From: Clostridiales bacterium
GTDB taxonomy: Bacteria > Bacillota > Clostridia > Lachnospirales > Lachnospiraceae
Assembly (NCBI GenBank): GCA_020859995.1
Contig: JAJBVE010000064.1
Coordinates: 1-45,180 of the forward strand
Direction of reading: 5' to 3'
Length of the DNA: 45,180 nt
The notes below the pieces were generated by a model, which was not told where the DNA came from, made no database searches, and saw only the letters and a program-made list of their open reading frames with translations. The position numbers were made by a program, and so were the translations under genes. Below are positions 1-18,699 of this stretch, piece after piece. Each line of letters opens with the position of its first letter. Positions within the stretch are counted from its first letter, which is position 1.

Positions 1-3000
1 CACCCGGGAGTTCCTCCTCGGTGGTGACGTCAACCTTGCTGATCTTGACGGAGGTGATGGTGTTCGTAAACGCTGCCGTCTGGGTCTCGTCTTTGACGAT
101 GGTTCCTGTGGTGCCGGCTGCTGTCGTCACATAACCATCCTCTGTGTAAGAGGTCTCTGTTACTGTGTAGGTCGTACCTGCCGGGATGCCTGTTGCACTC
201 TTGCTCTCCCCGTGTTTCAGGATGAAGGTCGCCACGCCGTCTGTAAAGGTCATCTCTCCGAAGGTGCCATTCAGGGTCGTATCACTCAGCGTTACCGTGA
301 AGGTGAATTCCTTCTCGGTGTCAACTACGCTGCCCGCTACCGTCTTGGTCACGGTCAGGTCGCCGGTGTCAAGGGTGTTGGTCACGTTGCTGCCATCAAT
401 CGTGGTAGTGTAGCCAGCTACTGCTTCCTCGGTGATGGTGTAGGTGATTTCCTTGCCGCCCTTATATTTTGCGAGATTCGCGAAGCTGTACGTCCAGGTA
501 CCATCCTCCGCAGCTGTCACTGTCTGGCTGTCTACCTTTTCGCCATCCGCCAGCAGATTGATCGTAATGCTGGCCGGACGCTCGCCGCTGAGATTATCAT
601 TGTCGAACCAGGTCTTGGTACCGGTCACAACAACCGTCCCAGGAATGTGAGTGTTGGTGATCGTGAATCCTGCCGCAGCTGTTCCGGTTACTTCCGCTGT
701 ATAGCCTTCCGGTACATTTACTTCCTCTACCGTATAGGCGATTTCTTTGCCATCCGCGTACTTCGCGAGACCTGTAAATCCTGCCGTCCAGCTGTTGTCC
801 GCGTTCAGCGTCACCGTCTTGCCGGTATCCGCGCCATCTGCCAGCAGTTTTACAGTTACACTGTCCGCGCGGATGCCATCCTGATTGTCCGCGTCAGACC
901 AGACTTTAGTCACCTGAACACTCGTCTCTTCCGGTGTACGTGTATTCGTGATCACATATCCGGTCGTCGCGTCTCCCGTGATCGTGCTCGTATAACCAGT
1001 CACGCTCTCTTCCTGCACCGTGTAGATGTTTCTGGTTCCGTTTGTATACTCGTCAAGATCCGTGAAGCTAGCCGTCCAGCTATTCGTCTCTGAAAGCGTC
1101 ACAGTCTGATCCGTAGCTGTTCCGTTCTTCACAAGTGTCACAGTAATGCTCGCCGGGCGGATGCCGTCCTGGTTGTTGCTGTCATCCCAGGCCTTCGTCA
1201 CCGAAACGCTCGTCTTGCCAGGTGTATAACTGTTTGTCACGTCAAAGCCGGTCACCGTAGCCGTATAATCCGTCACCACGTCTTCGGTAATCGTATACTT
1301 GATCTCTGTGCCATTTGAATACTTGTCAAGGTTCTCAAACTTCCAGCTCCAGTTCTCATCCGCCGTCACCGTCTTGCTCTGTACTTCTATGCCATTCGCG
1401 TACAGGCGGATCGTGATGCTCTCCGGACGCTTGCCGTCCTGATTTTCACTATCATCCCAGGTCTTGCTTCCGCTGACCTCGGTTGTCTCCGGCGTATGCG
1501 TGTTCGTGATTGTGTAGCCAGTTGCAGCGTCTCCAGTGATCGAAACGGTATAACCGCTCGCCACATTCGACTCCTTTACTGTATATTCAATCGCTACGCC
1601 GCTTGCGTACTTCGCAAGATTCTCGAAGCTTGCTGTCCAGTTGTTGTCCGCATTCAACGTTACAGTCTTACCTGTGTCTGCATCATTCGCCAGCAGCTTT
1701 ACTATTACCTCAGTCGGGCGAATACCGTCCTGGTTGTCGGCATCGGACCAAACCTTGGTTACCTTGACTTCCGTTGTTTCTGGTATGTGGGTGTTCGTGA
1801 CAATATACCCATCAGCCGCTGTTCCAGTAATCTCTTCTGTATAGCCAGCCGGCACATCTACTTCCTCTACAGTATACTTAATCGCTACACCGCTCGCATA
1901 CTTCGCGAGATTCGTGAAGCCTGCTGCCCAGTTATTGGTTGCATTCAGCGTTACGGTTTTGCCTGTGTCTGCGCCATTTGCCAACAGCTTTACCGTCACC
2001 TCGGTTGGACGAATGCCATCCTGGTTGTTCGCGTCGGACCAGGCTTTTATTACCGAAATATCTACAGTAATCAGGTTATTCACGATCTTTACTTCCGTAC
2101 TTGTAGCATTCCGGCTTGGAGTAAAGTCTGCGCCGTTCCCTGTTACCATATATGAGCCATAGCTCGTGCCTACCGGCACGCCATTCTCTGTCTCATATAC
2201 ATAGTAGGTAGTCCCGATCGTCAGACCTGTGAAGCTTGTGCTTCCTGTACCGTCTGCTCCAATCGTGATCTTCTTTGTCTCTACTGCGGTCGCGTTCGCA
2301 GATGCGTCATACTCGCCCGCAAAGATGGATACCTCAAATTCCTTGCCTTCTGCAGTCGTGTCGGTCACACTGTTGTACTGCACTTCCTTGTTCACCGTGA
2401 TCGAACCCGTCTCAACCACGTTGTTCACGATCTCTACCGTTGTGCTCGTTGCATTCCGGCTCGGTGTAAAGTCTGACCCGCTTCCTGTTACTGTATAAGA
2501 GCCATAGCTCGTGCCTACCGGCACGCCATTCTCTGTCTCATATACATAGTAGGTAGTCCCGATCGTCAGACCTGTGAAGCTTGTGCTTCCTGTACCATCT
2601 GTTCCGATCGTGATCTTCTTTGTCTCTACTGCGGTCGCGTTCGCGGATACGTCATACTCGCCCGCAAAGATGGATACTTCAAATTCCTTGCCTTCTGCAG
2701 TCGTGTCGGTCACGCTGTTGTACTGCACTTCCTTCGTAACTTCCAGACTCCCCGTCTGTTTCACCTCATTTTCAATATCCACTTCCATCGGATATGCATA
2801 TTGTCCACTATTTATTGTTATTGTTTGAACTCTCACGCCAAGATCTTCCAGCGCATCTATCTGCGTACTGCTTGGTGCATCGCTTGTATCATAATAGAAC
2901 AATATATACACCGGATTGCTGGCCTGCAACACGTCAGGTGTTGTCGAGGAATCTTCCACGATTACATATAACGTATTGACTTCTATTGCCTCATAGAACG

Positions 3001-6000
3001 ACGCATAGCCATCAGACTGTGAAGTCGCATATTCTACGACATCATCTACGCTGTATGAAAGTGCGTTTGCAGAGAGCACACTATCCCAGGCAGTAGCCTT
3101 ATAAAGAGTAAAGCCTACTCCCGAAAGTGCTGCTGTCACATTGTCTACTACAGATGTCTTGTAAACAGACAAGTATGCAAAGCTTTGGCTTCCCCACGCT
3201 GTTGAACTACTATTCGTCACGACTGTACTCGTGGACGTACTTGTATATCCTTCCAGATATACGGTATTTTTCCAAGATACCGTCGTATCACTGCTTACTG
3301 GAACCACTTCCAAATAATAAGTAATTGTGTCACTGGTTAAAGCTGATGTATTTATATAAAATTTTATAGTATGAGTAGACTCATCCACAGTATAATACAC
3401 ATCCGCCGTCGTATTCTGTGTTATCGGAGTACTTCCATAATAAGCATTAAAGGTACTAGCATCATATTGCAGTCCTGATCCATATTCATCTACCAAAATA
3501 GCCGTTGTATATGTTGTATCAGAGGCAAGCAATTTTTCTATCATGGTTTTGAAACCACTAATCTTAAACTGTGCCAGTCCGTCCTTAACATATAAAGTGT
3601 TCCCGCCTGTATCATAACCTTGTCCAACAACTGATTTACTGAACGAACTTCCCGGCGTTAATTCTCCGCTGGCAGTTGCCGTAAATTCAAGGTCATCTCC
3701 AAGCACAATGGTTACTTTATTCGTATAGGTTGCTGTTCCAGCAAGCAGATATTCTGAATAATCAACAATCTTGGTCCGATAGACAAAACTTAAATCTTCT
3801 GTTCCGCCGCTTCCGTAATACGCTTTCAGCGCATCCAAAATGTTAATAGTTAAAACATTGCTTTCACTAACATCTATATGGTCATCTTCAATCCCTGTCG
3901 TCCATACGCCCGAATTTAATATATTATATGGATTTTCATTGCCTGCGGTAGTATAAAAGGCTTTGTAAGAAGATCCATCCCATACATATGTCAGCGTCAT
4001 ATTATCCGGTAGAATATCGACAAGTTCCGCACTATCTGGCCATTCCCATTCCTGACTTGCACTATTATAATAAAGCGCTTTTATTGTCTCTGCGCTGACT
4101 GTTACATACCAGCTGATAATGCCCTCATCATTAACTATCTGATATTTCCCCTTCTGTATTGCGCCCTGAACAAACCCCTGTGCAATCTCTGCCGTTGTAT
4201 ATACTGAGTACTGCCCGTGAGCCAATGTAGCCGTGTTTACTAAATTATAATAATGGCTCGAACCTGCTCCCTGTATTGTTGAATAATCAAAATACGTTAC
4301 ATACGTAATTGTAAATGTCAGGTCTTCAGATATTGTCCCAATATCCTTAAACGTCATTATAAACGCTCTGTAAATGGAATACTGATAATCAGTCGGCTCA
4401 ATAGAATAATCAAAATCGCTCAGGCTATACGTATTATTTCCCGTTGAGCCAGTTATTGTTACAGATTGAACAATAGATCCTGGAACACTATTGTAATTGG
4501 AGGTATCAACCCAATACCAGTCATGGTTCACAGCATTTCCTGAACTGCTCATCTGATCAGTAAGAGTTACTGTTGAATAATCCCCCGCTTTCAGTGTAAA
4601 GGTAACTGTCCACTCTACCTTTTTTACGGTGTCTTCGCCGTCAACATCAGTGATATCTCCGTATGTTTTTTCAACACTTAAGCCGGAATTACTTTCATTG
4701 GTAACTGTAATTCCCTCGGAGTCCTTGTCAACCGTATTTCCATCATCATCCTGCACTTTGGCCGTGTTTGTAACCGTTCGACTTTCTCCAGAATTTAATC
4801 CAGTTGTACTTACATCTGTTGTATATGTCATTGTAAGCTTTGTAATATTCGGATAGGTCGCAGCAATTACGCTGAAATCAATTTTAAAATCCTGTCCTGT
4901 ACTGTTTACAGTCAGGGCTTTCATCGTTTTCAATTCAGCCACAGTCAACGTTACAGATTCTTCTTTATTAGCATTTTCATCATAGTAATATATCGTGACT
5001 ACCGTACTGTCAAAAGAGTCATCCAAACTCAGGTTTGAATAGTTCCAGCTGTCGTCAAGAACATAATCATCAAGATATCCTTCCTGGCTCTCCACTGTAA
5101 TGGTCCAGGAGGCTGTGCCGGAGCCGTCACTATCTATGATGGTATCGTCTTCATTCAAAGTCTTCGTAACAACTGGCAGTTTTAATTCTATACTCTTTGT
5201 CCATGTATTGCTTTGCTGTGACTTATCAAGATCCCAGTTATCTGTATATTTTACTGTAGCACTATTTGAAAGAGTGTTGATTCCTGTAACACCTTTGCTG
5301 GTGTCAACCTTCATCGTGTAAGTAAACGTCAGATAATCATTTTCACTCAATGTATAAGCATCAGCTAACGTTGTTGTAAAAGACGAGCTGGACGTAGTAG
5401 TAGTGCTGCTCAATACAGTGCCTTTGCTGGTCGTAACAACTACGTTCATATCTTCAGTGCTTAACATTTTAAACGAGTCCGTCAGCGATGTAATTACATT
5501 ATCGCCATTTACAGACGTTACAGTCACAGTAAAGGTAACAGTGCCGTTTGTTTCATCATAATCAGTTTCTATTTTTTCAACTGTCAGGCTGCTCTGTGTG
5601 CCATACAATGTAATCTCATACTCATCGCCAGCAATTTGAATTGTCACTGTCTCTTTTCCATCAACATTGCTGGTATCCGCGTTTGCAGAGAACTCTATAT
5701 GTGCTGTAATATTGAACGCCGCAGTTCCAACCCCTGAAAAAATGAAATACAAACGATTAGTAGCTGTATCCAAATAGTAATATCCTAAACCATTTCCAAA
5801 TTCAGCAGCGTCATCAGCGCTCGTTGGAATACTTTGGGTATCAATATCTAAATATGTCTCCAGATTGCTGACATCTATATAATATACTGTCGAAGAACTT
5901 ACCTGGCTAAAATTCACGTCTACCGCAAAAGAATAAGATGAGTTTGAACTATCAGTGGTCACGGTTGTAGAAACGCTATTCAAATTTTTCGTTGTTCCTT

Positions 6001-7383
6001 CAACAACCGCTACCGGTTCTGCACTCTCTAAAGCCGCAGTGAAGATCGCTCCGACTGTAGAGAAACTATCCTGTGTAAATCCCATCGACGTTAAGTCACC
6101 ATTAGCGTTGACATTGACATAGTCAGTCACAACTTCGGCTTCGCCGCCATCTGTAACATGGACTACTTCCGAATTAACAATTTCACCTTCCAGTCCAAGA
6201 TCAACCGCCTTACGGAAAACCATGCTCACACTCACAGTACCATTTTCGGGCTCAATTTGCTCACCATCGCACACGAAATAGACATCGTACAAGACGTACG
6301 CTGTCTCGGTATTCGCTTCATTCAGCCCAAGCGTACTCCCAAGCTGACTCTCAATCTTTCTGACCGCTTCGTTGTACGCGTCGCTGCCTGGCTCGATGTA
6401 GTCTGCCTTCAGCTCCGCGTCCTGCGGCAGGTTCGCTGCTTCGGAAGCTGTCGCTGTGATCACGACGCGGTTGTCTGAATAAGTAAAGGAAGTCTTCGGA
6501 GCTTCGGTCTCTGTTTCAGTCTCCGTTTCGGTCTCCGTCTCTACCTCTGTTTCTGCCTCAGTCTCTGCTTCTGTTTCAATCTCAGTTTCCGCTTCGGCCG
6601 CTGCTTCTGTCTCGGCCTCGGTCTCTGCTTCCTCCGAAGTTTCAGCCTCGACTGTTTCTGTGACACCCTCGCTCTCGGATTCGGTGTCCGCAGAAGTCTC
6701 TGCCTCAGAGTCGGACAATGTTTCAACTTCGGTCGCCGCTTCTGCTTCGGTTGTATCTTCCGCTTCGCCTGCTTCCGCAGCTGTCTCTGTCTGAGCTTCG
6801 GATTCTGACGCGCTCTCGGACTCAACGGCTGCCTCTGTCGTTTCCGCGGTCGCTGTGTCTGACACCGCCTCCGTCACGTTCTCTGTCACGGCTTCGGTGG
6901 TATTGTTGTTTTCGTTCTGGGTATTGTCTGAAGGAGTTTCTTCTACATTAGAAGAGGTCTCCGATGATTCCTGTGCCGCATCGTCTCCGGATGCCGCGGT
7001 TGTGTCCGCTTCTGTGGCGGGTGCCGCGTCCGTTTCGGATGTGCTTTCTGCATTCGTGCCGGATCCGCTCTCCGCTTCCGCGGCGGCTGCGGTCTCCGCC
7101 TCCGTTTCAGTTACGGAGGATGCAGAAGTCTCGACCGCAGTGGTGTCTGCCGTCGTTTCCTCTGCCGATGCAGATGTGGCAGGCTCTGCTGCCTCTGTAT
7201 CAGATGTGTTGTCAGAATTGATTTCTGCCGCTTCTGTGACGTTCTCCGTCACGGCTGTCTCGGCGGCCAGTGTGGTGCCGTCGTCAGCGAGTGTGGTGAT
7301 CCCAGCCTGCTGGAATACCATAGCCATGGCTAAAACTATAGCCAGGAATCGCCCCCCCGAGTTGCTTTTCTTCCAATACGCAT
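1..7383 (-). CDS. Giant Cna-B repeat surface adhesin, 3' end outside window, frame broken near start
   Basis: One frame stays open from 7327 to the window edge, about 2,440 codons. In order it shows a signal-peptide core (FLAIVLAMAMVFQQAG), a Glu/Thr/Ala/Ser-rich stretch (about 6490-7300), several beta-rich segments resembling isopeptide-forming adhesin domains (about 2800-6480), a pair of near-identical 115-residue units (about 2080-2769), about six Cna-B-type repeats (about 440-2070; VTKVW opening, TVEE and TNTH closing motifs), and a pilin-isopeptide-like domain at the edge. It is presumably secreted and wall-anchored, but the anchor lies outside the window. The only well-placed start is ATG 7383, with AAAGGGG 9 nt upstream; that frame hits TAG after 15 codons. 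The signal-peptide frame is reached only if one base is gained, or two lost, between the ATG and the G7 run at 7352-7358. ATG 7327 lacks a ribosome site and would cut the signal peptide. Phase variation or an assembly error are both possible. Confidence 0.85.
440..2070 (-). repeat. About six Cna-B-type domain repeats, roughly 270-290 bp each
   Basis: Repeats follow with spacings near 273-291 bp and share a WSDADNQDGIR-like opening and an AYTVEEVNV-like close. Cna-B domains are rigid stalk modules with Lys-Asn isopeptide bonds; here the Lys of VTKVW, the Glu of TVEE and the Asn of TNTH are visible. They are more diverged from one another than the two 345-bp units. Confidence 0.75.
2080..2769 (-). 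repeat. Two tandem 345-bp near-identical units inside the adhesin gene
   Basis: The unit around 2080-2424 recurs at 2425-2769 with a 345-bp offset (115 codons) and only scattered substitutions. Each encodes a domain beginning near EVQYNSVTD and ending near TPSRNATST. Near identity at DNA level suggests recent duplication and makes unit loss or gain by recombination possible. Confidence 0.85.
7352..7358 (-). repeat. Homopolymer run of 7 G (coding strand) in adhesin signal-peptide region
   Basis: The plus strand has seven C; the gene reads seven G between ATG 7383 and the hydrophobic core. Eight or five G would join the start codon to the long frame. Such runs are known slippage sites in phase-variable surface genes. 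Confidence 0.7.
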
Positions 7384-7414
7384 AGCTTTCTTCCCCTTTC
7401 TCAAAAAGCTTTTT

Positions 7415-7476
7415 GCGGCAGCTCTGGCTTTATTTAAGCTGCCGCTTGCCACGCACTTCACGCAGGGACTCTGCGT
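7415..7476 (-). promoter_or_regulatory. Two stem-loops in the adhesin 5' leader
   Basis: Arms 7415-7423 and 7437-7445 (9 bp, 13-nt loop) form one hairpin. Arms 7460-7465 and 7471-7476 (6 bp, 5-nt loop) form a second. Both lie between the predicted promoter and the ribosome site. Neither is followed by a T run, so a regulatory or stabilising leader is likelier than a terminator. Confidence 0.45.
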
Positions 7477-7489
7477 GTAGTTTGTCATA

Positions 7490-7517
7490 ATCATAGTCCT
7501 TTTTTTAGATTTTGCAA
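7490..7517 (-). promoter_or_regulatory. Promoter of the giant adhesin gene
   Basis: On the minus strand TTGCAA (7512-7517) is separated by 16 bp from TATGAT (7490-7495), leaving a leader of about 100 nt before ATG 7383. Confidence 0.5.
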
Positions 7518-7947
7518 CAAAAATTTCACAAATTTTTCAATAAAAATGGGGATTGTGCCATTCCTTTTTGTCTAAACTTAACAATTTTCGTAGCTGTGGA
7601 AAGTTTTAGTAGAAATGTGGAAAGTTTCATGCCTTTATGAGGTGTTTATGCCTGTCTGTTTATGCAATTGCATTGTTTTTTATTCGAAGGCTGCATAAAA
7701 ATGCAGGCCAAATCAGCTTAACAAATTTCGTAATGTGAATAAGCAGAAGAGGTGTGTGTAAAAAATCAGGGGCAGGCAGTGCCTGGCCGATGCTGATTCC
7801 GCATCCGGCAAGCATGTGTCATGCCCCCTGCTCTTCGCCTTTGGCTTTTACTCACGATTTTTCCCGCCAGGCTTCGTTCCTGGCTTTCATGTCTGGCTTT
7901 CGCTTCATATTTTCACTTGTATGCCAGAGCGCCATGAATATCAATCG
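7518..7947. other. AT-rich intergenic stretch, no gene seen
   Basis: This spacer lies upstream of the adhesin promoter and downstream of the small Rpn-like gene. Short frames here lack ribosome sites or family resemblance. No clear terminator was found. Confidence 0.5.
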
Positions 7948-8310
7948 TCAGAAAACTTCCGCCAGCACTCGCTCAACCTCTTCCACCGAAGTCTCGCAGG
8001 CTTCGGCAATTTCCGCATTAGGTGCACCTTCTTTATGCATTTTAATTATACGAAGGATCCGATTGGCGCCTTGCTCTATTCCTTGCTCTATTCCCTTCGC
8101 TATTCCTTGCTCTATTCCTTTCGCTATTCCCTTCTCTATCCCAATCTCCATCCCTTTGGCCTCTCCCTCTTTTCGTGCATAGCTCATTGCAGCTTTATGA
8201 TCTCTGATTGCTTTCTCTCTGGCTTCATACTCCAGACGTTTCCGCTCGTCCGCACTCAATGCCATGAGAGTTTCCCAGGCTTCGCCAATATATTCATTTT
8301 TATTTGCCAT
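7948..8310 (-). CDS. Stand-alone C-terminal domain of an Rpn-family protein (RpnS-like)
   Basis: The 120-residue product begins MANKNEYIGEAWETL, passes through a charged helical part (residues 20-50), a run of GIEKGIAKGIEQ repeats (about 55-80) and a C-terminal helical end resembling a small DNA-binding helix pair (EIAEACETSVEEVE). This matches the segment that follows the nuclease domain in Rpn-family (PD-(D/E)XK, PDDEXK_2) proteins; the nuclease domain itself is absent. It is not an obvious dead fragment: GGAGG sits about 10 nt before the ATG and a good promoter lies upstream. In E. coli, C-terminal RpnS products neutralise the full-length RpnL toxin, so an antitoxin-like role is possible (inference). 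A decayed rpn gene that kept an internal start is the alternative. It is divergent from the nuclease-containing relative at 8594. Confidence 0.75.
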   Translation of the reverse strand: MANKNEYIGEAWETLMALSADERKRLEYEAREKAIRDHKAAMSYARKEGEAKGMEIGIEKGIAKGIEQGIAKGIEQGIEQGANRILRIIKMHKEGAPNAEIAEACETSVEEVERVLAEVF

Positions 8311-8336
8311 AGTCTGAAAATCCTCCGTTTTTCTTA

Positions 8337-8365
8337 ATTATAGCAATAAAACATAGGACCTGCAA
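8337..8365 (-). promoter_or_regulatory. Promoter of the small Rpn-like gene
   Basis: On the minus strand TTGCAG (8360-8365) is followed after 17 bp by TATAAT (8337-8342), about 26 bp from the ATG. The -10 box and spacing are ideal. Confidence 0.65.
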
Positions 8366-8508
8366 GCAGAATCTGCAATTTAATCATGTGTTTATATCTT
8401 TTTATAGTTTGCAATTTGTTTTTCAACTTTCCTTTTACATTATCGTTTTTCATTAAGTCTTTTTGTGTCATTATTCAATATTTCTATGTATCTATTGATA
8501 TTTCAATA

Positions 8509-8537
8509 TTGACGTATATTGTATAAAATGCTATACT
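8509..8537 (+). promoter_or_regulatory. Promoter of the Rpn-like nuclease gene
   Basis: TTGACG (8509-8514), a 17-bp spacer and TATACT (8532-8537), followed by a leader of about 50 nt and GGAGG at 8583-8587 before ATG 8594. Confidence 0.7.
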
Positions 8538-8593
8538 ATTATACGTTGATATTGTAAAATAAATCCAGATAGTATTAAAAACGGAGGATCGTA

Positions 8594-9757
8594 ATGCAAA
8601 ATAGCACGCTTTCTACATCATCCAGTTCGTATATAGCAAAACTCCAGAAGGAGCATGGACTGCCAGATAAAATCAAAACCGAAGCGCACCTATGGGACGA
8701 GATTTTAAAAAAAGAAATATTAGAACTTCCTTTTCTGATATTGCCACTGATTAGGGAAATACATGGAAAACAATATCCTGCTAATGTGTCTATTGAACCA
8801 GTAGGAACGGAGTATTCTGTAGAATGCCCGGTTACGAAACAGATCTCTTCTATCCGTTCCGATACAACCATAAAAATAGATCATTCAGATATTTTTCATT
8901 TTGAAAACCAACGACGATCGGATCCTATGATGATATTCCGAGTCTTTGAATATGGAAGTCAGCTGGCACTCACTGTAGCAGTAATGGGCTCTAAAGTACA
9001 GGCGGAGAATTCCTTCCTGCTAAAATTTCCTTATTCGGCTATTCTTCTGTTAGAAGGTGGCTTAAAGCAAAGTAATAACCTGACCTGCTCTTTGGAATTT
9101 CCAGGTATGAAGACACTTGAAGAATCTATGCTTAGTAAGACGGACGAGTCGAAATTTATTACGAGAGTCATTCATGCAAAATATTCTGTCGCGCTTATAA
9201 AGGTCCAGTCTTACGAAATACAGGATATCTATGATCGTCAACTTTACATTTTGATTCCTTTTATGCCAATCCGCTTTAGCAGGCTGGCGCAGGCAGGCAT
9301 AAATGGTACAGGCTGCAGCGATGTCTCCAAGGCAACGCAGGATCTGGTTGACGCAAAAATACAATTGACAAAGTTCTATCATGACATTATACTCATTTTA
9401 AACAAAGCAACAGAGGACGGTTTCCTTAGTGACTCAGATGTGAAAATTATTCTTATTTTGCTTAGAAAAGCCATGATACGTGTTTTTTACAAGAATTCAG
9501 ATTTATTATCGGAGGTGATAAACATGACAGCACCAGTACTCGAACTTGAATGGGAAACGATCGCAAGATTAGAAAAAGAAGTAGCCGAAATGGGTTCTGC
9601 CCTGGCCGAAAAAGATTCTGCCCTGGCTCAGAAAGATTCTGCCTTGGCTCAGAAAGATTCTGCCTTGGCTCAGAAAAATGCGGAAATTGAAAAATGGCGG
9701 GCCCTGGCTCTGGGCAAATCGCAGACTTCGAAGCGTCCAAAGCGCTGGCGCAGGTAA
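8594..9757 (+). CDS. Rpn-like PD-(D/E)XK family protein with C-terminal heptad repeats
   Basis: The product has 387 residues. Residues about 85-130 contain IKIDHSDIFHFENQ, with E104 and Q106 in the E-x-Q arrangement of the Rpn/PDDEXK_2 nuclease-transposase group, followed by an RVFEYGSQ helix. The middle (130-300) is compatible with this family's fold. Residues 311-387 form a distinct tail: a short start segment, then four SALAQKD-type heptads likely to form a coiled coil, and a basic end (SKRPKRWRR). A remarkable internal ribosome site lies just before Met311. The gene has its own promoter, and a terminator follows. Known Rpn proteins are DNA-cleaving toxins or phage-defence proteins whose internal C-terminal product is the antitoxin. 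The nuclease assignment is moderately secure; the toxin role is inference. Confidence 0.75.
   Translation: MQNSTLSTSSSSYIAKLQKEHGLPDKIKTEAHLWDEILKKEILELPFLILPLIREIHGKQYPANVSIEPVGTEYSVECPVTKQISSIRSDTTIKIDHSDIFHFENQRRSDPMMIFRVFEYGSQLALTVAVMGSKVQAENSFLLKFPYSAILLLEGGLKQSNNLTCSLEFPGMKTLEESMLSKTDESKFITRVIHAKYSVALIKVQSYEIQDIYDRQLYILIPFMPIRFSRLAQAGINGTGCSDVSKATQDLVDAKIQLTKFYHDIILILNKATEDGFLSDSDVKIILILLRKAMIRVFYKNSDLLSEVINMTAPVLELEWETIARLEKEVAEMGSALAEKDSALAQKDSALAQKDSALAQKNAEIEKWRALALGKSQTSKRPKRWRR
9511..9757 (+). promoter_or_regulatory. Intragenic ribosome site and start for a 77-residue C-terminal product
   Basis: GGAGGTGAT at 9511-9519 matches nine consecutive bases of the anti-Shine-Dalgarno sequence, and ATG 9524 follows in frame with the long gene at a 4-nt gap. 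It would yield a 77-residue protein beginning MTAPVLELEW and containing the heptad repeats. The site is stronger than the one serving the full-length start. Confidence 0.65.
9595..9678 (+). repeat. Four 21-bp tandem repeats coding for SALAQKD heptads
   Basis: Units at 9595, 9616, 9637 and 9658 differ at a few positions only. Each adds one heptad, so copy-number change would lengthen or shorten the coiled coil without shifting the frame. Confidence 0.85.
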
Positions 9758-9790
9758 GCTATGTTATATCCAGAAGCTCAGGAAGACTGA

Positions 9791-9830
9791 GGGCTGGCTC
9801 TCGATTATTTTTGACAGGAGCCAGCCCTTT
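9791..9830 (+). terminator. Terminator after the Rpn-like nuclease gene
   Basis: GGGCTGGCTC (9791-9800) pairs with GAGCCAGCCC (9818-9827), giving a 10-bp stem and 17-nt loop, followed by TTTT. Confidence 0.75.
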
Positions 9831-9831
9831 T

Positions 9832-9873
9832 ACTGTTTTCACTTTACTGTTTTCACTTTACTGTTTTCACTTT
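9832..9873. repeat. Three 14-bp tandem repeats between convergent genes
   Basis: The unit actgttttcacttt occurs three times without gaps at 9832, 9846 and 9860. It lies just beyond the terminator and next to the stop of the gene on the other strand. Confidence 0.85.
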
Positions 9874-9880
9874 ATTCATT

Positions 9881-12800
9881 TCACTTCGTGATCTTTACTG
9901 ATTTTTTGCTGCTCCATGCGGAGTAGTAGGTTGTGCCGTTTACTTTCTTATAAGTGCGGACGCGCACATAGTAGGTCTTATTTTTCGTCAGGCTGGAGAG
10001 AATCTTGCTGGCGGTTGACGCGCTGGAGACGGTCACCTTTTTGTTTCCGCTGGCGAAGGTTTTGCTCGTGGAGTACTGGATCTGGTAGCCGGTCACTTTT
10101 GTCTTCGTTTTCCATTTCACAGTCGCCTTTTTCGAGGAGGTGTTTTTCACGCTGGAAAGGGTCGTGCCGGTCAGGCGGACGGTGGTCGCCGCTGTGCCGG
10201 TTCCTTTTTTGCTTCCCGAGTAGGCCACCACTTTATAGTAATAGGTCGTGCCGTTGTTGCTTTTTACTTTTGTATCTGTGTAGCTCAGTGTCGTCGCGCC
10301 GGAGAGTTTCGCCAGCCTGGTGTAGCTTTTGGCGGAAGCGGTCTTGCGGTAGACGATGTAGCCGGATGCCCCGGTGACCTGCTTCCATTTGACCGTGATC
10401 CCGCTGGAAGTATTTGTCAGGCTGGAGATCTTGCAGGCAGCAAGCTCCATGGTCACGGTCGCGGATGCGGACATGGTCCCAAGCTTTGATTTGGCTGTGA
10501 CGGTCGCCGTGCCTGGTTTTTGAGCGGTTACCTTTCCGGAGGAAGTGACGGTGGCTTTGGAGCCGCAGCTCCAGGTAAAGGAGCTCGCTTTCACCTTCAC
10601 GCCGTTCAGATAGACGGTGAAGCTCCGGCTTTTGCCGACAGTCAGGGTCGTACTCGCAGAGGAGTACAGAGTAAGGGAGTTCGAAAAAGCGCCGGGCTCG
10701 AGCGCTACGGTCACGTTTTTCGTGGCATTATCCGGCTGTGTGACTTTCTCTGCGCTGTCGCAACCGAACAGCTGCACCCAGTACAGTGTACCGTTCTGGG
10801 AAAAGCATCCAATGCCGATGGACTCGTAGCTGCTGCCAAGAATGTTCGCTTTATGCCCGGAGGAATTCATCCAGGCTGTCATGACTGCGGACGCGGTGCT
10901 CTGGCCATAGGCGATATTTTCGCCGTAAGCTTTGTCTGAGACGGTAAAACAGGTCAGGCCGGATGGTCTGGTATGGCTGAAGCTGATGGCAGTCTCCGCC
11001 GCCCGTTTCATCGCGGCTTCCAGCAGGTCCGCGTCCATCGTCAGCTTGGAGAGGCCGGCCGCGGTCCTTTCTTTGTTTACAAGTTTTAATACTTCATAGG
11101 CCTGATCGTAATAATAGGTGCCGCTTAAGGTGACGGTTTCCATCGGATAATAGGAACCGTCCTCGATCCGCACCAGCCCGCTCGTTTTCACGGACAGTTT
11201 GCTGCAGGTGGTGAAAGCCGCGGCTTCTATTTCGGTCACACTGCTCGGAACGGTCAGGTTCTCAAGTGCCGTACACTCGTAAAACGCATAGCTTTTGATG
11301 GTTGTCAGACCGGTGGAAAGGGTTACTTTCGTCAGCGACGGGCAGCAGTAGAACAGGTAGGAGGGCAGTGTCGTTACTCCCGTTCCGATTTTTACCGTGG
11401 TCAGCGCGTCGCAGCCGGCAAATGTACAGGTGGACAGGGTTTCTACGCTGTCTCCGATCGTAACCTTCGTCAGCGCATCGCAGCCGTAAAATACGTAAGG
11501 CTCCACTGTTTTGACTCCGCCGCCAAGCGTGATGGAAGCAAGGGAGGTACAGTCACTAAACGCGTAGGAAGAAATCGTCTGGACTCCGCTTCCGAGCGTG
11601 ACGGACTTCAGAGACGTGCAGCAGTAAAATACATACTGCGGCAGTGATTTCACGCCGTTTCCTATCGTTACAGATTTCAGCTGTTCGCAGCCGCCGCAGA
11701 GTTCTCTTCCCAGGGTTGTCACAGAATCCGGAATGACCAGGGTAGTGATCGCGGTGCGTCCAATGGCGAATTCTCCCAGCTCCTGCAGACCGCTTCCGAG
11801 CGTGATCTGGCTGAATACATCGCAATAGGCAAACGCGAGATCTCCGATCGATGTCACCGCGTCCGGAATGCTGATGCCTGTCAGGGTCTCGCTGCCGTAA
11901 AACGCATATTCTCCAATGGTCAGAAGGCTTTCAGGCAGAGAAACCTCCGCCGCCTTGCAGTACGCGAAAGACCGGTCTCCTACATGAGTGATTCCTTCGG
12001 ATATCACGATCTTGTCCATTTCATACCCATACCAGGGAGCGTTATGATAAGTACTCGATGTATAGTCCGTCATCGCCCCGGACCCGGTCAGAGTCAGTAC
12101 GCCGTTTTCCAGGACCGCCGTAATGTTTCCGTCCTGCCAGGAAATGGCGGTATCGGTTTCTGCTTCTGTGTCCTCCTCCACAAGCATTGGCTCCGCCGCC
12201 TCCATTTCATCTATGGAAATCACGGCGATGCCGCTCTCTTCGTCTAAGAGGATCACGGTCTCCTCCGTCTCGAGAGTCACGGTTTCGGGTGTGTCCGCCG
12301 GTTCTTCTATCCCGGTTTCTGTATCCGCAGCTGTATCTGCGGTCGTATCTGTGGTCGTATCTACCGCAGTCTCATTCTCTGAATCACTGCCCGCAGCCGC
12401 TCCATTATCCTCTGACAAGCCGGTATCTGTCTCCGCAACTGTTTCTGCGGTCGTCCCAGCGCCAGTTTCGGTTCCGTTCTCCGTATCACTGCCCGCAGTC
12501 ACGTCAATGCCGGCAGATGTGTCAGCTTCCATTTCTGTGCCTGTCTCCGCGGCGGTCTCTGCTTCCGCTTCTGTACCTGTCTCCGCGGCGGCCTCCGAAG
12601 CTGTCTCATTTTCCGAATCAATGTCGGAGGTCGTGCCGGTATCTTCTGACGTGTCAGCATCTGTCTCCACGCTTACTTCCGGAGCCGTTTCATTTCCCAG
12701 GTCACTGTCGGAGGCCGCGCCGGTATCCCCTGACGTGCCAGCACTGGTTCCCGCAGTTGTCTCATCGGTTGTTCCATCGGCTGTCTCTGTCGTCTGAGTT

Positions 12801-13078
12801 TCCGTGTCTTTTGATGTCCCGGCGTCCGCTTTCTCAGAAGCAGCCTCATCGGTATCCTGCTCCGTCTCTTCAGACTGCCCCGACCCGGAGCTGTCCTGCA
12901 CTTCGATTCCGTCGATCTGCAAAGATCCCGCGGCATCAGAAGCAGAGCCTTCGGTTTCTGTGTCTTCTGACAGGTCTTCTTCTAAAATAACGTCATCTGC
13001 CGCAAAGGTTTGCGCGGCATACATGGGCTGCGACACCAGCATCAGTGCTGCCAGGGCAGCGGCTATCTTTCTTTTCAT
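9881..13078 (-). CDS. Secreted BspA-type leucine-rich repeat / CAP / Ig-like / FN3 surface protein
   Basis: The 1,065-residue product starts with a signal peptide (MKRKIAAALAALMLVSQ, cut near AQTFA). A Thr/Glu/Ala-rich acidic linker fills residues 30-310. BspA-like LRR_5 repeats of about 23 residues span about 340-630 (FYGCDALTKVTIGDSV pattern). A CAP/SCP domain follows at about 650-770 with the usual motifs SFSHTRP, YGENIAYG and SSGHKANIL, then a Big_2 bacterial Ig domain (about 795-875) and two fibronectin type III modules (880-1065). No LPxTG or choline-binding end is visible. BspA proteins bind host matrix or other bacteria, and bacterial CAP domains are of uncertain function. It has its own promoter and an RBS-like AAGGGGG about 12 nt before the ATG. 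Confidence 0.88.
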   Translation of the reverse strand: MKRKIAAALAALMLVSQPMYAAQTFAADDVILEEDLSEDTETEGSASDAAGSLQIDGIEVQDSSGSGQSEETEQDTDEAASEKADAGTSKDTETQTTETADGTTDETTAGTSAGTSGDTGAASDSDLGNETAPEVSVETDADTSEDTGTTSDIDSENETASEAAAETGTEAEAETAAETGTEMEADTSAGIDVTAGSDTENGTETGAGTTAETVAETDTGLSEDNGAAAGSDSENETAVDTTTDTTADTAADTETGIEEPADTPETVTLETEETVILLDEESGIAVISIDEMEAAEPMLVEEDTEAETDTAISWQDGNITAVLENGVLTLTGSGAMTDYTSSTYHNAPWYGYEMDKIVISEGITHVGDRSFAYCKAAEVSLPESLLTIGEYAFYGSETLTGISIPDAVTSIGDLAFAYCDVFSQITLGSGLQELGEFAIGRTAITTLVIPDSVTTLGRELCGGCEQLKSVTIGNGVKSLPQYVFYCCTSLKSVTLGSGVQTISSYAFSDCTSLASITLGGGVKTVEPYVFYGCDALTKVTIGDSVETLSTCTFAGCDALTTVKIGTGVTTLPSYLFYCCPSLTKVTLSTGLTTIKSYAFYECTALENLTVPSSVTEIEAAAFTTCSKLSVKTSGLVRIEDGSYYPMETVTLSGTYYYDQAYEVLKLVNKERTAAGLSKLTMDADLLEAAMKRAAETAISFSHTRPSGLTCFTVSDKAYGENIAYGQSTASAVMTAWMNSSGHKANILGSSYESIGIGCFSQNGTLYWVQLFGCDSAEKVTQPDNATKNVTVALEPGAFSNSLTLYSSASTTLTVGKSRSFTVYLNGVKVKASSFTWSCGSKATVTSSGKVTAQKPGTATVTAKSKLGTMSASATVTMELAACKISSLTNTSSGITVKWKQVTGASGYIVYRKTASAKSYTRLAKLSGATTLSYTDTKVKSNNGTTYYYKVVAYSGSKKGTGTAATTVRLTGTTLSSVKNTSSKKATVKWKTKTKVTGYQIQYSTSKTFASGNKKVTVSSASTASKILSSLTKNKTYYVRVRTYKKVNGTTYYSAWSSKKSVKITK

Positions 13079-13297: not shown

Positions 13298-14563
13298 TCA
13301 CTTACCAGATACCACTTCATACGAGATCCTTCCGGTTCCCTGGGTCCGGTTCATGGAGCTCATGACGCGGATCGAACCGTATCTGCGGCGAAAAACTTCC
13401 TGCTGCAGAAAATCCGCCATGTCAGAGACGATCTGGTCGATCGGTTCTCTTCCATTGTAGCGAAAATAAAAGGCCTGCCTTCCTGCGTCTACGCCTTGAA
13501 GAATATGGGCGCAAAGCTCTCTTTTGCTGTAAAAATCCAGATGGCTCTGTACAAAATAGTCCTCCGCTGCCGTGCGGCAGGCCGGCACGCCTGTAAAATG
13601 ACCATGGTCCCGGCGGATGCGCGCGTCTGAAAGGTTGTAGTAGTCATATTGGATTTCGTTTCTTTCCTTATTAGATGTGGTAATGTCCCAGGTCACGTCC
13701 AGATGGAAGGTCGTGCCATTGATTTTTACAATATTCCAGGCGTGAGGCTCTCCGTTTTCTATATCCGCGGCTTTCTCCGGCTGGTCGGCGCGGCCTTCCC
13801 TCGCCAGGTTTTGCCCCTCGCCGGGTTTTGCCCCTCGCCGGGTTTTGCCCCCAATCTTTGATTGTGGGGCGTGGTATGTCCCCAATCTTTGATTGTGGGG
13901 CGTGGTATGTCCCCAATCTCCGATTGTGGGGCGTGGTATGTCCCCAATCTCTGATTGTGGATGCGGGCATCCTCGCCCTTCGGGCGGAATATTCGTTTCA
14001 TTTGTGCTTCTGCCGCTTACAACGATGCATTTCATTCCAGCGGCGTTCAGCAACAGTTTCACGGCCTTGGCGATGCCCTCGCATACGGCCCTCTTTCTCG
14101 CGAATACGCCGGTGACGGAGTGGGCTGCCACGAGGCGGTTCACGTTTTCTGTGCAAAGAGCCTCTCTGTCATAGACTACATTTTCACAAAAGTAATCATG
14201 GACGCGCCGTACTTTGACGCTTTCCGGCGCATACTCAAGCCTGAGATCACGAACCAGCCTATTCACCGCGGCCTCTAATCTGGCATTATAGAGGGTCACC
14301 TGCTCCGGGCTGCAGAAGTATTGGGGAAGGAAGATCGTTTCTACTTTCGATATCCGCAGGTTGAGCGCGCTCTGATTAAAATAATAGAGGTGCGGACAGT
14401 CGTGGGTAATGGCGTGATAGACGCGATCGATCGTATCACTGTCCGCCGAAATGCCTGGCACCTGGATTTCCTTCTGAAGCTTTATAACGCCGTTATAAAG
14501 AGCCAGATAGAGGGTCTTTTCTGTCGGTGTCAGCTGCCGAAAGTAGTAGTAGTCATAGATCAT
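13298..14563 (-). CDS. Transglutaminase-like protein with a repeat-derived insert
   Basis: The 421-residue product carries the cysteine-protease-like transglutaminase triad: Cys161 in AVCEGIAKA, His274 in EPHAWN and Asp289 in HLDVTWD. The helical N-terminal region (1-150) and C-terminal region (300-421) match no function I can name. Between Cys and His, residues about 190-260 are an insert rich in His, Pro, Gly and Arg, encoded by 31-bp and 17-bp DNA repeats; the core resumes cleanly after it. It starts at ATG 14563 with GGGAGG 10 nt upstream. It is last in the kinase-VWA-PP2C cluster, 84 nt after the PP2C gene, with a hairpin between. There is no signal peptide, so it is probably cytoplasmic. 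A protease or peptide cross-linker role is inference. Confidence 0.75.
   Translation of the reverse strand: MIYDYYYFRQLTPTEKTLYLALYNGVIKLQKEIQVPGISADSDTIDRVYHAITHDCPHLYYFNQSALNLRISKVETIFLPQYFCSPEQVTLYNARLEAAVNRLVRDLRLEYAPESVKVRRVHDYFCENVVYDREALCTENVNRLVAAHSVTGVFARKRAVCEGIAKAVKLLLNAAGMKCIVVSGRSTNETNIPPEGRGCPHPQSEIGDIPRPTIGDWGHTTPHNQRLGTYHAPQSKIGGKTRRGAKPGEGQNLAREGRADQPEKAADIENGEPHAWNIVKINGTTFHLDVTWDITTSNKERNEIQYDYYNLSDARIRRDHGHFTGVPACRTAAEDYFVQSHLDFYSKRELCAHILQGVDAGRQAFYFRYNGREPIDQIVSDMADFLQQEVFRRRYGSIRVMSSMNRTQGTGRISYEVVSGK
13801..13851. repeat. Three 17-bp tandem repeats beside the 31-bp array
   Basis: Units tcgccgggttttgcccc (first copy with one change) begin at 13801, 13818 and 13835. Again the length is not a multiple of three but the reading frame stays open. 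Confidence 0.85.
13849..13970. repeat. Four 31-bp tandem repeats inside the transglutaminase gene
   Basis: Copies begin with ccccaatc at 13849, 13880, 13911 and 13942, exactly 31 bp apart with few changes. Each unit contains an imperfect inverted repeat (ccccaatc against gattgtgggg). As 31 is not divisible by three, successive copies are read in different frames, giving peptides such as PQSEIGDIPR, PTIGDWGHTT and PHNQRLGTYHA, with no stop in any of them. Confidence 0.9.
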
Positions 14564-14581
14564 TCCTGGTGGTCCTCCCTG

Positions 14582-14633
14582 GGTGTGAGCGTACGCGGAT
14601 CTTTCTCTCCTCCACCGCCTGTACGCTCACACC
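14582..14633 (-). promoter_or_regulatory. 13-bp perfect inverted repeat between PP2C and transglutaminase genes
   Basis: ggtgtgagcgtac (14582-14594) and its exact complement (14621-14633) enclose 26 nt. There is no T run on either side. A processing, stability or attenuation element, or a protein-binding dyad, fits better than a terminator. Confidence 0.6.
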
Positions 14634-14647
14634 TGCTCCGCGGCCCT

Positions 14648-15499
14648 TCAGGTAACCAGCGAAAATGCGTTCGGCGAAGGAGGGTTCTCCGCGCAGGCCG
14701 TTTCCGGGCAAAAGCAGGCCAGCGCCACTGTGATGTCATCGCCGCAGCCCAGCTCGCTGGTCTGGGCAAGCCATCCTTTCAGACTTGCCGCCACCGCGTC
14801 AAATCCGTATTCCAGGATCGTGTCGTAGTATTCGCGGCAGGTCTGCCCAAACGAGGCGTCGGATACATGGCTGTTAGAGAATCCATCCGTCGAAAGCAGA
14901 TAGAGAACGGGAGATGTTTCCTCCTCTTCGAACCGATGCAGGACCGTCACTGCTTTTTTCCAGGCATCCGCCGCGCAAAGGGAATTCGTCTGCGTGCCGA
15001 GGAATTTTTCCGCCTCGATGACGGGAGCCGCCCCCGCCGCGTCAATTTGGACGATGTCCCCGTCGCCGATCTGAAACGCGAATAAAAACTGCGGAGTCAG
15101 AAGCAGGCCAAGCAAAGTGGTGCCGTACAGGCGGCAGACCGCCTGCGCGCTCTCCTGATCCCTGCTTTCCGTGTGTATTTTGAGAATCCGCCTTTTCCAT
15201 TCTCTGTCAATTTCCTGCGCGATCTTTATCTCTCCCTCGCGGTTCAAGTACGCCATGAGCAGATCCGGATGTCCGGCAAAATTATCGAGCAGTTTCCCGA
15301 CCACGGAGCAAAAGACGCTGACCGCGACCCGCGCGCCGGTCCCGCTGAACGGGCAGGATTTGCTTCCGTGCCCGTCCGCGACCGCCAGAATGGTCGTCCC
15401 ATCCGGATATTCCATGTACATGTAGCCGTCCTGACAGGGCTGTCCGGAGCGTATGTGGGATGCTCCCTGTACTCTCCGGGCACAGGTTTTCCGAAGCAC
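14648..15499 (-). CDS. PP2C-family Ser/Thr protein phosphatase
   Basis: Metal-binding PP2C motifs are all present: CQDGY near the start, VADGHGS (Asp binding metal), YGTTLLGLL, IGDGDIV, STDGFSNS and GDDITVAL near the end. About 283 residues is a full PP2C_2 domain with no membrane or sensor part, so it is soluble. The frame extends to a GTG at 15508, but that codon touches the GGGAGG ribosome site; GTG 15499, three codons on, has 8-nt spacing and is preferred. The VWA stop is only a few bases upstream, implying co-transcription. It is expected to reverse phosphorylation by the kinase of this cluster. Confidence 0.88.
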   Translation of the reverse strand: MLRKTCARRVQGASHIRSGQPCQDGYMYMEYPDGTTILAVADGHGSKSCPFSGTGARVAVSVFCSVVGKLLDNFAGHPDLLMAYLNREGEIKIAQEIDREWKRRILKIHTESRDQESAQAVCRLYGTTLLGLLLTPQFLFAFQIGDGDIVQIDAAGAAPVIEAEKFLGTQTNSLCAADAWKKAVTVLHRFEEEETSPVLYLLSTDGFSNSHVSDASFGQTCREYYDTILEYGFDAVAASLKGWLAQTSELGCGDDITVALACFCPETACAENPPSPNAFSLVT

Positions 15500-15514
15500 A
15501 TCGATCACCTCCCT

Positions 15515-16312
15515 TTACCAGACATCCCCCGCGTCAATGTCCTCCGGAGCCGGAACAGGAGGTACGTTTATGGGAGTCTTCTGCTTCCCGACAGATCCCT
15601 GGCCACTGCCTGTGTCCGGGCGCTGAACGCTGCCTGTGCTGCTTCGGCCCATGACTGGATCCGGGAAATCCTCTTCTTCCTCGCGGGGCTTGCTGGGCGG
15701 AGCGGCCACCGTTTTCGGTACCTCGGTGGAAGCCCACTTAATCATATCGACAAGTACCGCCGCGTTATTCGCCTGCAATACCAGCTCCTTGTTGCCGGTA
15801 AACTCCGCAAGGACGTCGTCATTCGCGTCTTTGCCGATCGAGATGGCAATGCGGACTGCCTTCTTGCCCCATGGCATGGAAAGCAGCTTCTGAAGAGATT
15901 TTTTGTAATCATCTGTCGGCTGACCGTCCGAAAGCAGCACCAGCACCGGCGGCAGAGCACGATCGGACATCGGTGGTATCGTCAGCTGCTCGGAGAGCAA
16001 TTCAAAGGCTTTGCCCATATCCGTGAGGCCCTTCGCCTTCAGATCATCCCACGCAAAGTCTTCTACCGGAACCGCGTCAGTCGTCACCCAGGACGCGCCC
16101 GTCGCGAACTGCAGCGTGCGGATCAGCATCTGCGCATGAGGGTTTTCTGCCGCCACCTGCCGCATTTCCGGAAGCACGGACTGGATCGCGTAATTTACCG
16201 TGCCAATCTTTTCGCCGTCCATCGAGCCTGAACAGTCCACGGCCCAGATAAAATGTAACGGTCTGCTCGCGAGTTCTCCACCTGGTCTTCTTAAATTTAA
16301 AATTTCCGGCAT
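15515..16312 (-). CDS. VWA-domain protein, TerY-like
   Basis: The 265-residue product has a complete MIDAS metal site: D26-C-S28-G-S30 in AVDCSGSMDG, a TDMGKAF segment and LSDGQPTDD. The VWA domain covers about residues 18-200. The C-terminal tail (200-265) is Pro/Glu/Gly-rich and probably disordered. There is no signal peptide or membrane helix. GAGGA lies 7 nt before the ATG. In TerY-P modules a small VWA protein of this type is encoded with a PP2C phosphatase and a Ser/Thr kinase, as here; the VWA part is thought to be a scaffold or target. Confidence 0.88.
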   Translation of the reverse strand: MPEILNLRRPGGELASRPLHFIWAVDCSGSMDGEKIGTVNYAIQSVLPEMRQVAAENPHAQMLIRTLQFATGASWVTTDAVPVEDFAWDDLKAKGLTDMGKAFELLSEQLTIPPMSDRALPPVLVLLSDGQPTDDYKKSLQKLLSMPWGKKAVRIAISIGKDANDDVLAEFTGNKELVLQANNAAVLVDMIKWASTEVPKTVAAPPSKPREEEEDFPDPVMGRSSTGSVQRPDTGSGQGSVGKQKTPINVPPVPAPEDIDAGDVW

Positions 16313-16354
16313 ATTCTTTCCTCCTCATTCTTGATTATCTGCCTGTTTCGAGGG

Positions 16355-16459
16355 GCCGGACATCCGGCGGATGTCCGGCGGCACATCCTCAAAACGTTTT
16401 TTAATTCCTGTAGTCATGGTATCATCGGCACTTCGCTCCCCGCAGGGGGGGGAAGTGCC
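16355..16459 (-). promoter_or_regulatory. Two hairpins in the kinase-VWA gap
   Basis: Arms ggcacttc (16427-16434) and gaagtgcc (16452-16459, overlapping the kinase stop) enclose a G8 run. Nearer the VWA gene gccggacat (16355-16363) pairs with atgtccggc (16371-16379) across 7 nt. Neither has a proper T run, so read-through into the VWA gene is likely. Confidence 0.45.
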
Positions 16460-18525: not shown

Positions 18526-18580
18526 CGCCCCTCGTTTTTTCGTCCCGCGTTTTTGATCAGACGCATGTTTTATATTAAGT

Positions 18581-18609
18581 ATCCTAGCAGATGCCCCATC
18601 CAGAATCAG
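18581..18609 (-). promoter_or_regulatory. Possible promoter of the kinase cluster
   Basis: On the minus strand CTGATT (18604-18609), 17 bp, TAGGAT (18581-18586). It is a mediocre match, but its place just before the preferred GTG start supports it. Confidence 0.35.
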
Positions 18610-18699
18610 TGGGGGGAAATTTTTTAATCTCGCAAAAACAACGATCCACCGCGTACTCTTCAGCCCACGGCCCATCTCCGGTCAATGACACAAAGCTTC

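Follow-up and report, generated by a model that had tools for sequence, protein, structure and literature searches.

According to a 2023 preprint by Zhong et al. (PMC10327210), small proteins are made from internal starts in five Escherichia coli genes and one Clostridioides difficile gene. The E. coli rpn genes carry an internal promoter together with an internal start, the short protein RpnS inhibits the long protein (RpnL), and stand-alone RpnS genes exist; RpnA, RpnB, and RpnP2 behave as toxin and antitoxin (PMC10327210). In this study, we analyzed a 45,180-nt stretch of DNA (hereafter, the window; contig JAJBVE010000064.1 of assembly GCA_020859995.1) from a Clostridiales bacterium of the family Lachnospiraceae, in which the gene at 8594–9757 appears to contain a second gene. 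We consider it quite probable that one gene is nested inside another at this locus, which would encode a long nuclease-type protein and a separately transcribed 77-residue tail that inhibits it. The nested design itself is already known from E. coli, and the Lachnospiraceae form is a variant of it. As far as the literature searched extends (mostly non-subscription, with PMC10327210 as the only item on Rpn nested genes), no earlier description of the Lachnospiraceae form was found, and the new elements are the coiled-coil heptad tail, the nuclease group, and the evidence that codon choice preserves the whole set of signals, from promoter and start point to ribosome site and start codon. The features of the locus, all on the forward strand, are as follows.

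8509–8537, forward: TTGACG-N17-TATACT, its −10 box preceded by TG, likely the long gene's promoter (consensus match only, 10/12)
8583–8587, forward: Shine–Dalgarno site of the long open reading frame (ORF), GGAGG (pairing energy −9.5 kcal/mol)
8594–9757, forward: long ORF of 387 amino acids, Rpn-like, with a C-terminal coiled coil (ORF translation, homology, and N-domain fold)
8861–8911, forward: codons 90 to 106, with D90 and E104-N105-Q106 as putative catalytic residues (conservation)
9365–9393, forward: embedded promoter, TTGACA-N17-TATACT, with the A at 9400 as predicted +1 (consensus, conservation)
9511–9519, forward: internal Shine–Dalgarno site, GGAGGTGAT (conservation, pairing energy)
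9524–9757, forward: nested short ORF for a coiled-coil tail of 77 amino acids, the proposed RpnS-like antitoxin (in-frame ATG)
9584–9678, forward: 21-nt (seven-residue) tandem repeats in the short ORF, 4.4 copies (repeat detection)
9789–9829, forward: hairpin resembling an intrinsic terminator, with TTTT after it, where both transcripts likely end (−26 kcal/mol, z −5.3)

The preliminary description of this DNA had proposed that GGAGGTGAT and an in-frame ATG at codon 311 form an internal start, stronger than that of the full-length protein, for a heptad-rich C-terminal protein of 77 residues. The coordinates of the two elements agreed (9511–9519 and 9524), with the ATG at 9524–9526 in frame with the long ORF and eight bases, TGATAAAC, between it and the GGAGG, and the short ORF indeed encodes 77 amino acids including the 21-nt repeats at 9584–9678. 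Predicted pairing with the anti-Shine–Dalgarno sequence amounted to −10.8 kcal/mol at the internal site versus −9.5 kcal/mol at the site of the long ORF, a modest margin in the proposed direction. Since the 16S 3′-end pattern was not found in this assembly, the anti-Shine–Dalgarno sequence behind all pairing energies herein is an assumed one. The ribosome-site pattern occurred four times in the window against 0.26 expected from shuffling, and none of the 209 internal in-frame ATGs in the 20 other window ORFs taken as genes was preceded by a site of −10 kcal/mol or better.

Relatives were found in the same genome (4.4 Mb, 239 contigs) at four places, two of them partial, and in 15 of 47 genomes of the same genus at E ≤ 0.001. 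A contig scan of GTDB yielded 24 loci with titles of Lachnospiraceae, Clostridiales, or Roseburia, and a family-wide profile search matched 73 of 397 genomes at E ≤ 1e-10, from which 30 loci and 40 further regions were analyzed in addition to the earlier loci; metagenome assemblies among them may contain mis-joins. Class-wide, relatives occurred in 12 of 391 genomes, four of them outside the window's family, and a viral collection gave four pattern stretches with no confirmed relative. The sites were assigned to three subfamilies, with one locus (L121) left out of the counts, its site being unplaceable. Subfamily A, the window type, comprises 43 sites, mostly with MTAP or MTEP after the start and mostly with coiled-coil tails. 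Subfamily B (55 sites, Lachnospiraceae, TIGR01784-like) shares a homologous N-domain and a Met at about the same place in the alignment, but differs in its MGGK-like site, its four-residue repeats of the GREEG/GIEQ type, and its helix-turn-helix (HTH)-like end. Subfamily C (12 sites; MDES, MTDES, or MVE-like) has either kind of tail and is 22% identical to A in a profile comparison.

The preliminary description had raised the question whether the ribosome site is conserved beyond what its codons require, and this proved to be the case. Under synonymous resampling, in which the amino acids are kept, GGAGGT before the codon aligned with Met311 was expected in 2.1 of the 18 aligned rows of subfamily A and was present in all 18; this and the following resamplings treat rows as independent, and their expectations are too small by an unknown factor because the rows are related. 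The 18 rows remained after three of 21 (L043, L049, and L056) had been dropped for their similarity to another row, the removal of L056, which is less than 85% identical to any row, being somewhat arbitrary. Where Met311 was replaced (two of the 18 homologues), the codon was TTG or GTG, both of which are start codons. The Glu codon of the ribosome site was GAG in all 14 rows having Glu at that column; GAA accounts for 64.5% of Glu codons overall, and the other 17 Glu columns tested each mix GAA and GAG. The preceding codon ended in G in 18/18 rows whatever residue it encoded, and in the LLEVVNHM type, where the Glu-Val pair lies one codon further upstream, the ribosome site shifts along with it. 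Across the 43 A sites the start codon was ATG in 39, GTG in two, TTG in one, and TTA in one, the last being a partial copy. Sites of −10 kcal/mol or better were found in 40 of 42 A rows (5.8 expected; one row was dropped for too short an upstream open frame) and in 9 of 12 C members (2.7 expected), and the 9 of 55 in subfamily B were little above the synonymous expectation of 5.4. In subfamily C the site is encoded by other residues, for example Arg-Gly-Gly-Asp or Glu-Gly-Gly. Judged from these codon patterns, the internal ribosome site is under selection beyond the coding need.

The embedded promoter, which the preliminary description does not mention, sits within the coding region at a distance of 130 nt upstream from the internal ATG. 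With 11/12 consensus matches, it was the best promoter-like site in the 2-kb region scanned. When the 138 codon columns of the A alignment were ranked by excess codon uniformity, the top columns were L258 (TTG in 17/18), L269 (TTA in 15/18), I266 (ATA in 17/17), and I265 (ATT in 13/13), with T312, I100, S86, E307, and T259 (ACA in 13/17) also ranked at the top, and codons 258–267 of the alignment read TTGACA-N17-TATANT. Seven codon columns outline the promoter, start point, and ribosome site inside the coding sequence, and a similar codon scan could therefore find nested genes from alignments alone. Allowing up to three mismatches, the promoter was present at 39 of the 43 A sites (all except L047b, L052b, L059, and L135), at a distance to the start of 130 nt in 35, 127 nt in three, and 129 nt in one, and a purine stood seven bases after the −10 box in all 39. 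All 12 C members carried TTGAAA-N17-TATAAT or TATACT at 130, 136, or 139 nt before the start; here, the base seven after the −10 box was a pyrimidine in 11/12 and an A followed one base later in 11/12. TTGAAA-N17-TATACT also occurs in L157, a partial C-type copy in the window's own genome that lies outside these counts, at 130 nt (a distance counted by hand) before a GTG.

With the amino acids kept, a promoter with at most one mismatch was observed in 32 of 40 A rows against 0.76 expected (three of the 43 were dropped for too short an upstream open frame) and in 9 of 12 C members against 0.24, and at up to two mismatches the values were 38 versus 4.91 for A and 12 versus 1.51 for C. In subfamily B, no promoter with at most one mismatch was found 60–190 nt upstream at any of the 55 sites (0.14 expected), and four were found at up to two mismatches (1.06 expected); B is therefore a good, though imperfectly clean, negative control. 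Outside the 55, L164, which is a B-type gene in the window's own genome, has TTGACC-N17-TATAAT 186 nt before its start. In relatives from other families of the class, the promoter did not appear at the equivalent place among the best two matches at each of the five loci covering the region (ORFs scanned past the first 300 nt). In another family of the class, L161 and L166 contain TTGAAA-N17-TATAAT inside the gene, near the expected tail start and not about 130 nt upstream.

It could be argued that a single full-length product is made and that these signals arise secondarily from amino acid conservation and codon bias. Conservation of Glu-Val and Leu-Thr/Ile-Ile at the protein level does facilitate the formation of such motifs, but the resampling that retains these residues leaves 18/18 against 2.1 for the ribosome site and 32/40 against 0.76 for the promoter. 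Moreover, subfamily B keeps the homologous N-domain and not the promoter (0/55 at up to one mismatch), and subfamily C reaches the same signals via other amino acids. This explanation is, on the evidence of the alignments, strongly disfavored, and we rank it as the least probable of those considered. The internal translation start of the preliminary description thus stands, but not as a start alone: the locus looks like a complete nested gene, that is, a full transcription unit with promoter, ribosome site, start, ORF, and terminator.

Transcription from 9400 to about 9830 would be expected equally if, instead of the tail protein, the internal promoter and ribosome site served, for example, a gene further downstream or a small RNA derived from the 3′ portion of the gene. 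A same-strand ORF was indeed the first downstream neighbor within 300 nt at 9 of 27 full-length A loci with enough sequence, as this explanation would have it, but a terminator-like hairpin followed within 160 nt at 22 of the 27, counts that were obtained by simple rules without a background rate. The ribosome site and start are, furthermore, conserved alongside the promoter at a near-fixed distance. Given the terminator-like hairpin and the convergent orientation of the next gene in the window, the embedded promoter most likely serves the tail ORF, and a role for a downstream gene or small RNA appears very improbable. A 14-bp tandem repeat, TTTACTGTTTTCAC, is present in four copies at 9829–9886, right after the terminator hairpin and before the end of the convergent gene.

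As for the long product, it is probably of the PD-(D/E)XK nuclease type and carries a coiled coil at its C-terminus. D90 and E104 were invariant in all 21 full-length rows and, by comparison with PD-(D/E)XK motifs, may be catalytic. Foldseek matched nothing at E ≤ 0.001 to the predicted full-length model, and because a slower structural alignment matched mostly its helical part, the N-domain was folded separately. The window protein did not match the Rpn models TIGR01784, PF12784, and PF04754 at E ≤ 1 in Pfam and NCBIfam, where only weak coiled-coil matches appeared, which sets it apart from RpnL; likewise, no Rpn model was among the families matched at E ≤ 0.1 by 14 A1 members. The link to Rpn runs through the subfamily alignment A3, which was joined to A2 by hhalign with a probability of 100 and E of 5e-45, and of which 14 of 16 members matched TIGR01784 at E ≤ 0.01 (best 8.8e-10). 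By this profile chain, the long protein is distantly related to Rpn and escapes the standard Rpn models. A PDB sequence search with profile A1 returned three chains at E ≤ 1, neither Rpn nor nuclease; the four long proteins submitted to PADLOC returned no hit, and no Rfam family reached threshold in window positions 1–10000. In other Rpn-type genes of the same genome, which was also searched for PF12784 and PF04754 members, site-like stretches of −11.0 kcal/mol precede in-frame ATGs at codon 298 of L138 and codon 261 of L140, counted from the open-frame start.

This homology bears on the further suggestion of the preliminary description that the locus may be an independent version of an intragenic antitoxin, which now seems doubtful. 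Since the N-terminal part is homologous to Rpn and E. coli rpn genes share the internal promoter and start, sequence comparison makes it more likely that the arrangement was inherited or recurrent in the superfamily than that it was separately invented. RpnL/RpnS systems (RpnA-E, RpnP2, and one C. difficile rpn; PMC10327210) share with the locus a long protein, which in the locus is probably also of the PD-(D/E)XK type, an internal start that keeps the frame, lies close to the 3′ end, and has a ribosome site, an internal promoter, a tail with short repeats of varying number, and stand-alone tail genes. The promoters differ: the Lachnospiraceae one is near-consensus, lies 127–139 nt upstream, and shows conservation at synonymous sites. 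In E. coli rpnA, the best promoter-like match, ATGACA-N17-TTTAAT at 87 nt upstream, is weaker; it comes from a sequence scan and may differ from the mapped start.

That the tail differs from E. coli RpnS, as had also been proposed, was borne out by the prediction of a single long helix over residues 319–374 with heptad repeats. The RpnS tail is described as an HTH-like three-helix bundle with four-residue repeats whose number is variable (PMC10327210); the window tail is not of this type, since its heptads vary and not tetrads. Exactly one 21-nt unit distinguishes L043 from L044 (97.4% identical, different records), and the window tail has two units more than L041 and L034. In some A and C tails, four-residue repeats (KEHY, KEVT) replace the heptads (L058 in its tail, L104, L124, and L129), so both repeat types occur within one subfamily. 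These differences suggest that the tail type, coiled coil or HTH-like bundle, can be swapped while the nested design is kept.

Tail units also occur without the long gene. At 14 of the 43 A sites there were fewer than 240 codons of upstream open frame, and in five stand-alone units (L034, L039, L040, L041, and L133) the homology begins at residues 245–257, just before the −35 box at codon 258, with promoter, ribosome site, and start all retained; sequence variability ahead of residue 252 makes the exact break point uncertain, and L041 is close to the end of its contig. In L034, a one-base gap between promoter and start breaks the long frame and spares the short ORF. L135 starts only at residue 266 and retains neither promoter nor start, and the decayed copy L047b keeps ribosome site and start with the promoter gone. 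L052b is an extra tail ORF starting at the end of the full-length gene L052, comparable to the second copies reported downstream of E. coli rpnC and rpnE (PMC10327210). A further stand-alone ORF lies beside the nested gene itself.

7948–8310, reverse: divergent stand-alone ORF of 120 amino acids, like the C-terminal tail of another Rpn type (repeats, HTH-like end, Shine–Dalgarno pairing −9.5 kcal/mol)

Its 12-nt repeats encode four-residue GIEQ/GIAK units ahead of an HTH-like end; it matched TIGR01784 weakly (E 8.7e-6) and, in PADLOC, PDLC01084, "putative invertase" (E 1.1e-6). From these features, it is a candidate solo antitoxin adjoining the nested one.

In the mechanism that we propose, a long mRNA would be transcribed from the promoter at 8509–8537 and a short mRNA from the sigma-A-type promoter at 9365–9393, in codons 258–267, starting near 9400. 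The near-perfect ribosome site and the ATG of codon 311 would then yield the 77-residue tail alone, which would be expected in excess because of its own strong promoter. By analogy with E. coli RpnS, the tail would associate with the long protein via the coiled coil common to both, forming mixed complexes in which the nuclease is inactive, and the heptad number would set which long and short partners fit. The two promoters and the separate tail product are well supported as sequence features, and both products would presumably be made; that the long product is a toxic nuclease and that the short protein binds and blocks it are suggested by the E. coli systems, and defence may be the purpose. 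Antitoxin activity has been demonstrated for RpnS (PMC10327210), whereas for the window system it is proposed from sequence.

The evidence for separate expression would fit equally well if the nested gene were real and expressed and the short protein were a structural or assembly subunit needed by the long one, a coiled coil being a natural assembly element. Cas11d, a needed subunit of its Cascade, is the model for such an arrangement. The type I-D CRISPR pair Cas10d/Cas11d, likewise a small protein from an internal start in a defence gene, is named as such a case in PMC10327210; Cas11d, however, is a needed subunit and not an inhibitor, and its proteins are unrelated to those of the window. 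Against a subunit role, the E. coli RpnA, RpnB, and RpnP2 studied in the same preprint act as toxin and antitoxin, and stand-alone tails without a long partner suit an antitoxin better, although they may pair with other full-length copies. We therefore regard the subunit role as unlikely, while giving it more weight than the other alternatives above.

A broader scenario is offered tentatively, as a combination that we hold with rather less than even confidence. In it, the nested gene would be the older and more constrained part: a self-contained tail gene, equipped with promoter, ribosome site, and start, would have been kept in two separate nuclease subfamilies, A (TTGACA) and C (TTGAAA), and part of the conserved nuclease helix (Leu-Thr/Lys ... 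Ile-Ile) would owe its presence to the promoter in the underlying DNA. The heptad copy number would change fast and match long to short partners like a lock and key, and leftover tail genes would be solo antitoxins against paralogues. Repeat number as a determinant of specificity has a parallel in EcoR124I/II, whose variable four-residue repeats are mentioned in PMC10327210; there, the short-repeat number sets specificity through the spacer length of a restriction enzyme, without a nested gene.

If the proposal is true, the range of intragenic antitoxins, reported in E. coli and a single C. difficile gene, would widen to include a large Lachnospiraceae nuclease group that curated models leave unnamed. 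Evolutionary evidence, independent of expression data, indicates selection on the hidden signals. In practical terms, constructs carrying such a gene in full should produce the tail too.

Elsewhere in the window, a gene run at 13298–18675 on the reverse strand encodes transglutaminase-like, PP2C phosphatase, VWA, and protein kinase domains, and it adjoins a large LRR/CAP/Big_2/fn3 surface-type protein at 9881–13078. On the reverse strand at 2102–6199, a very long open frame spans 1366 codons across the examined stretch and may extend further.
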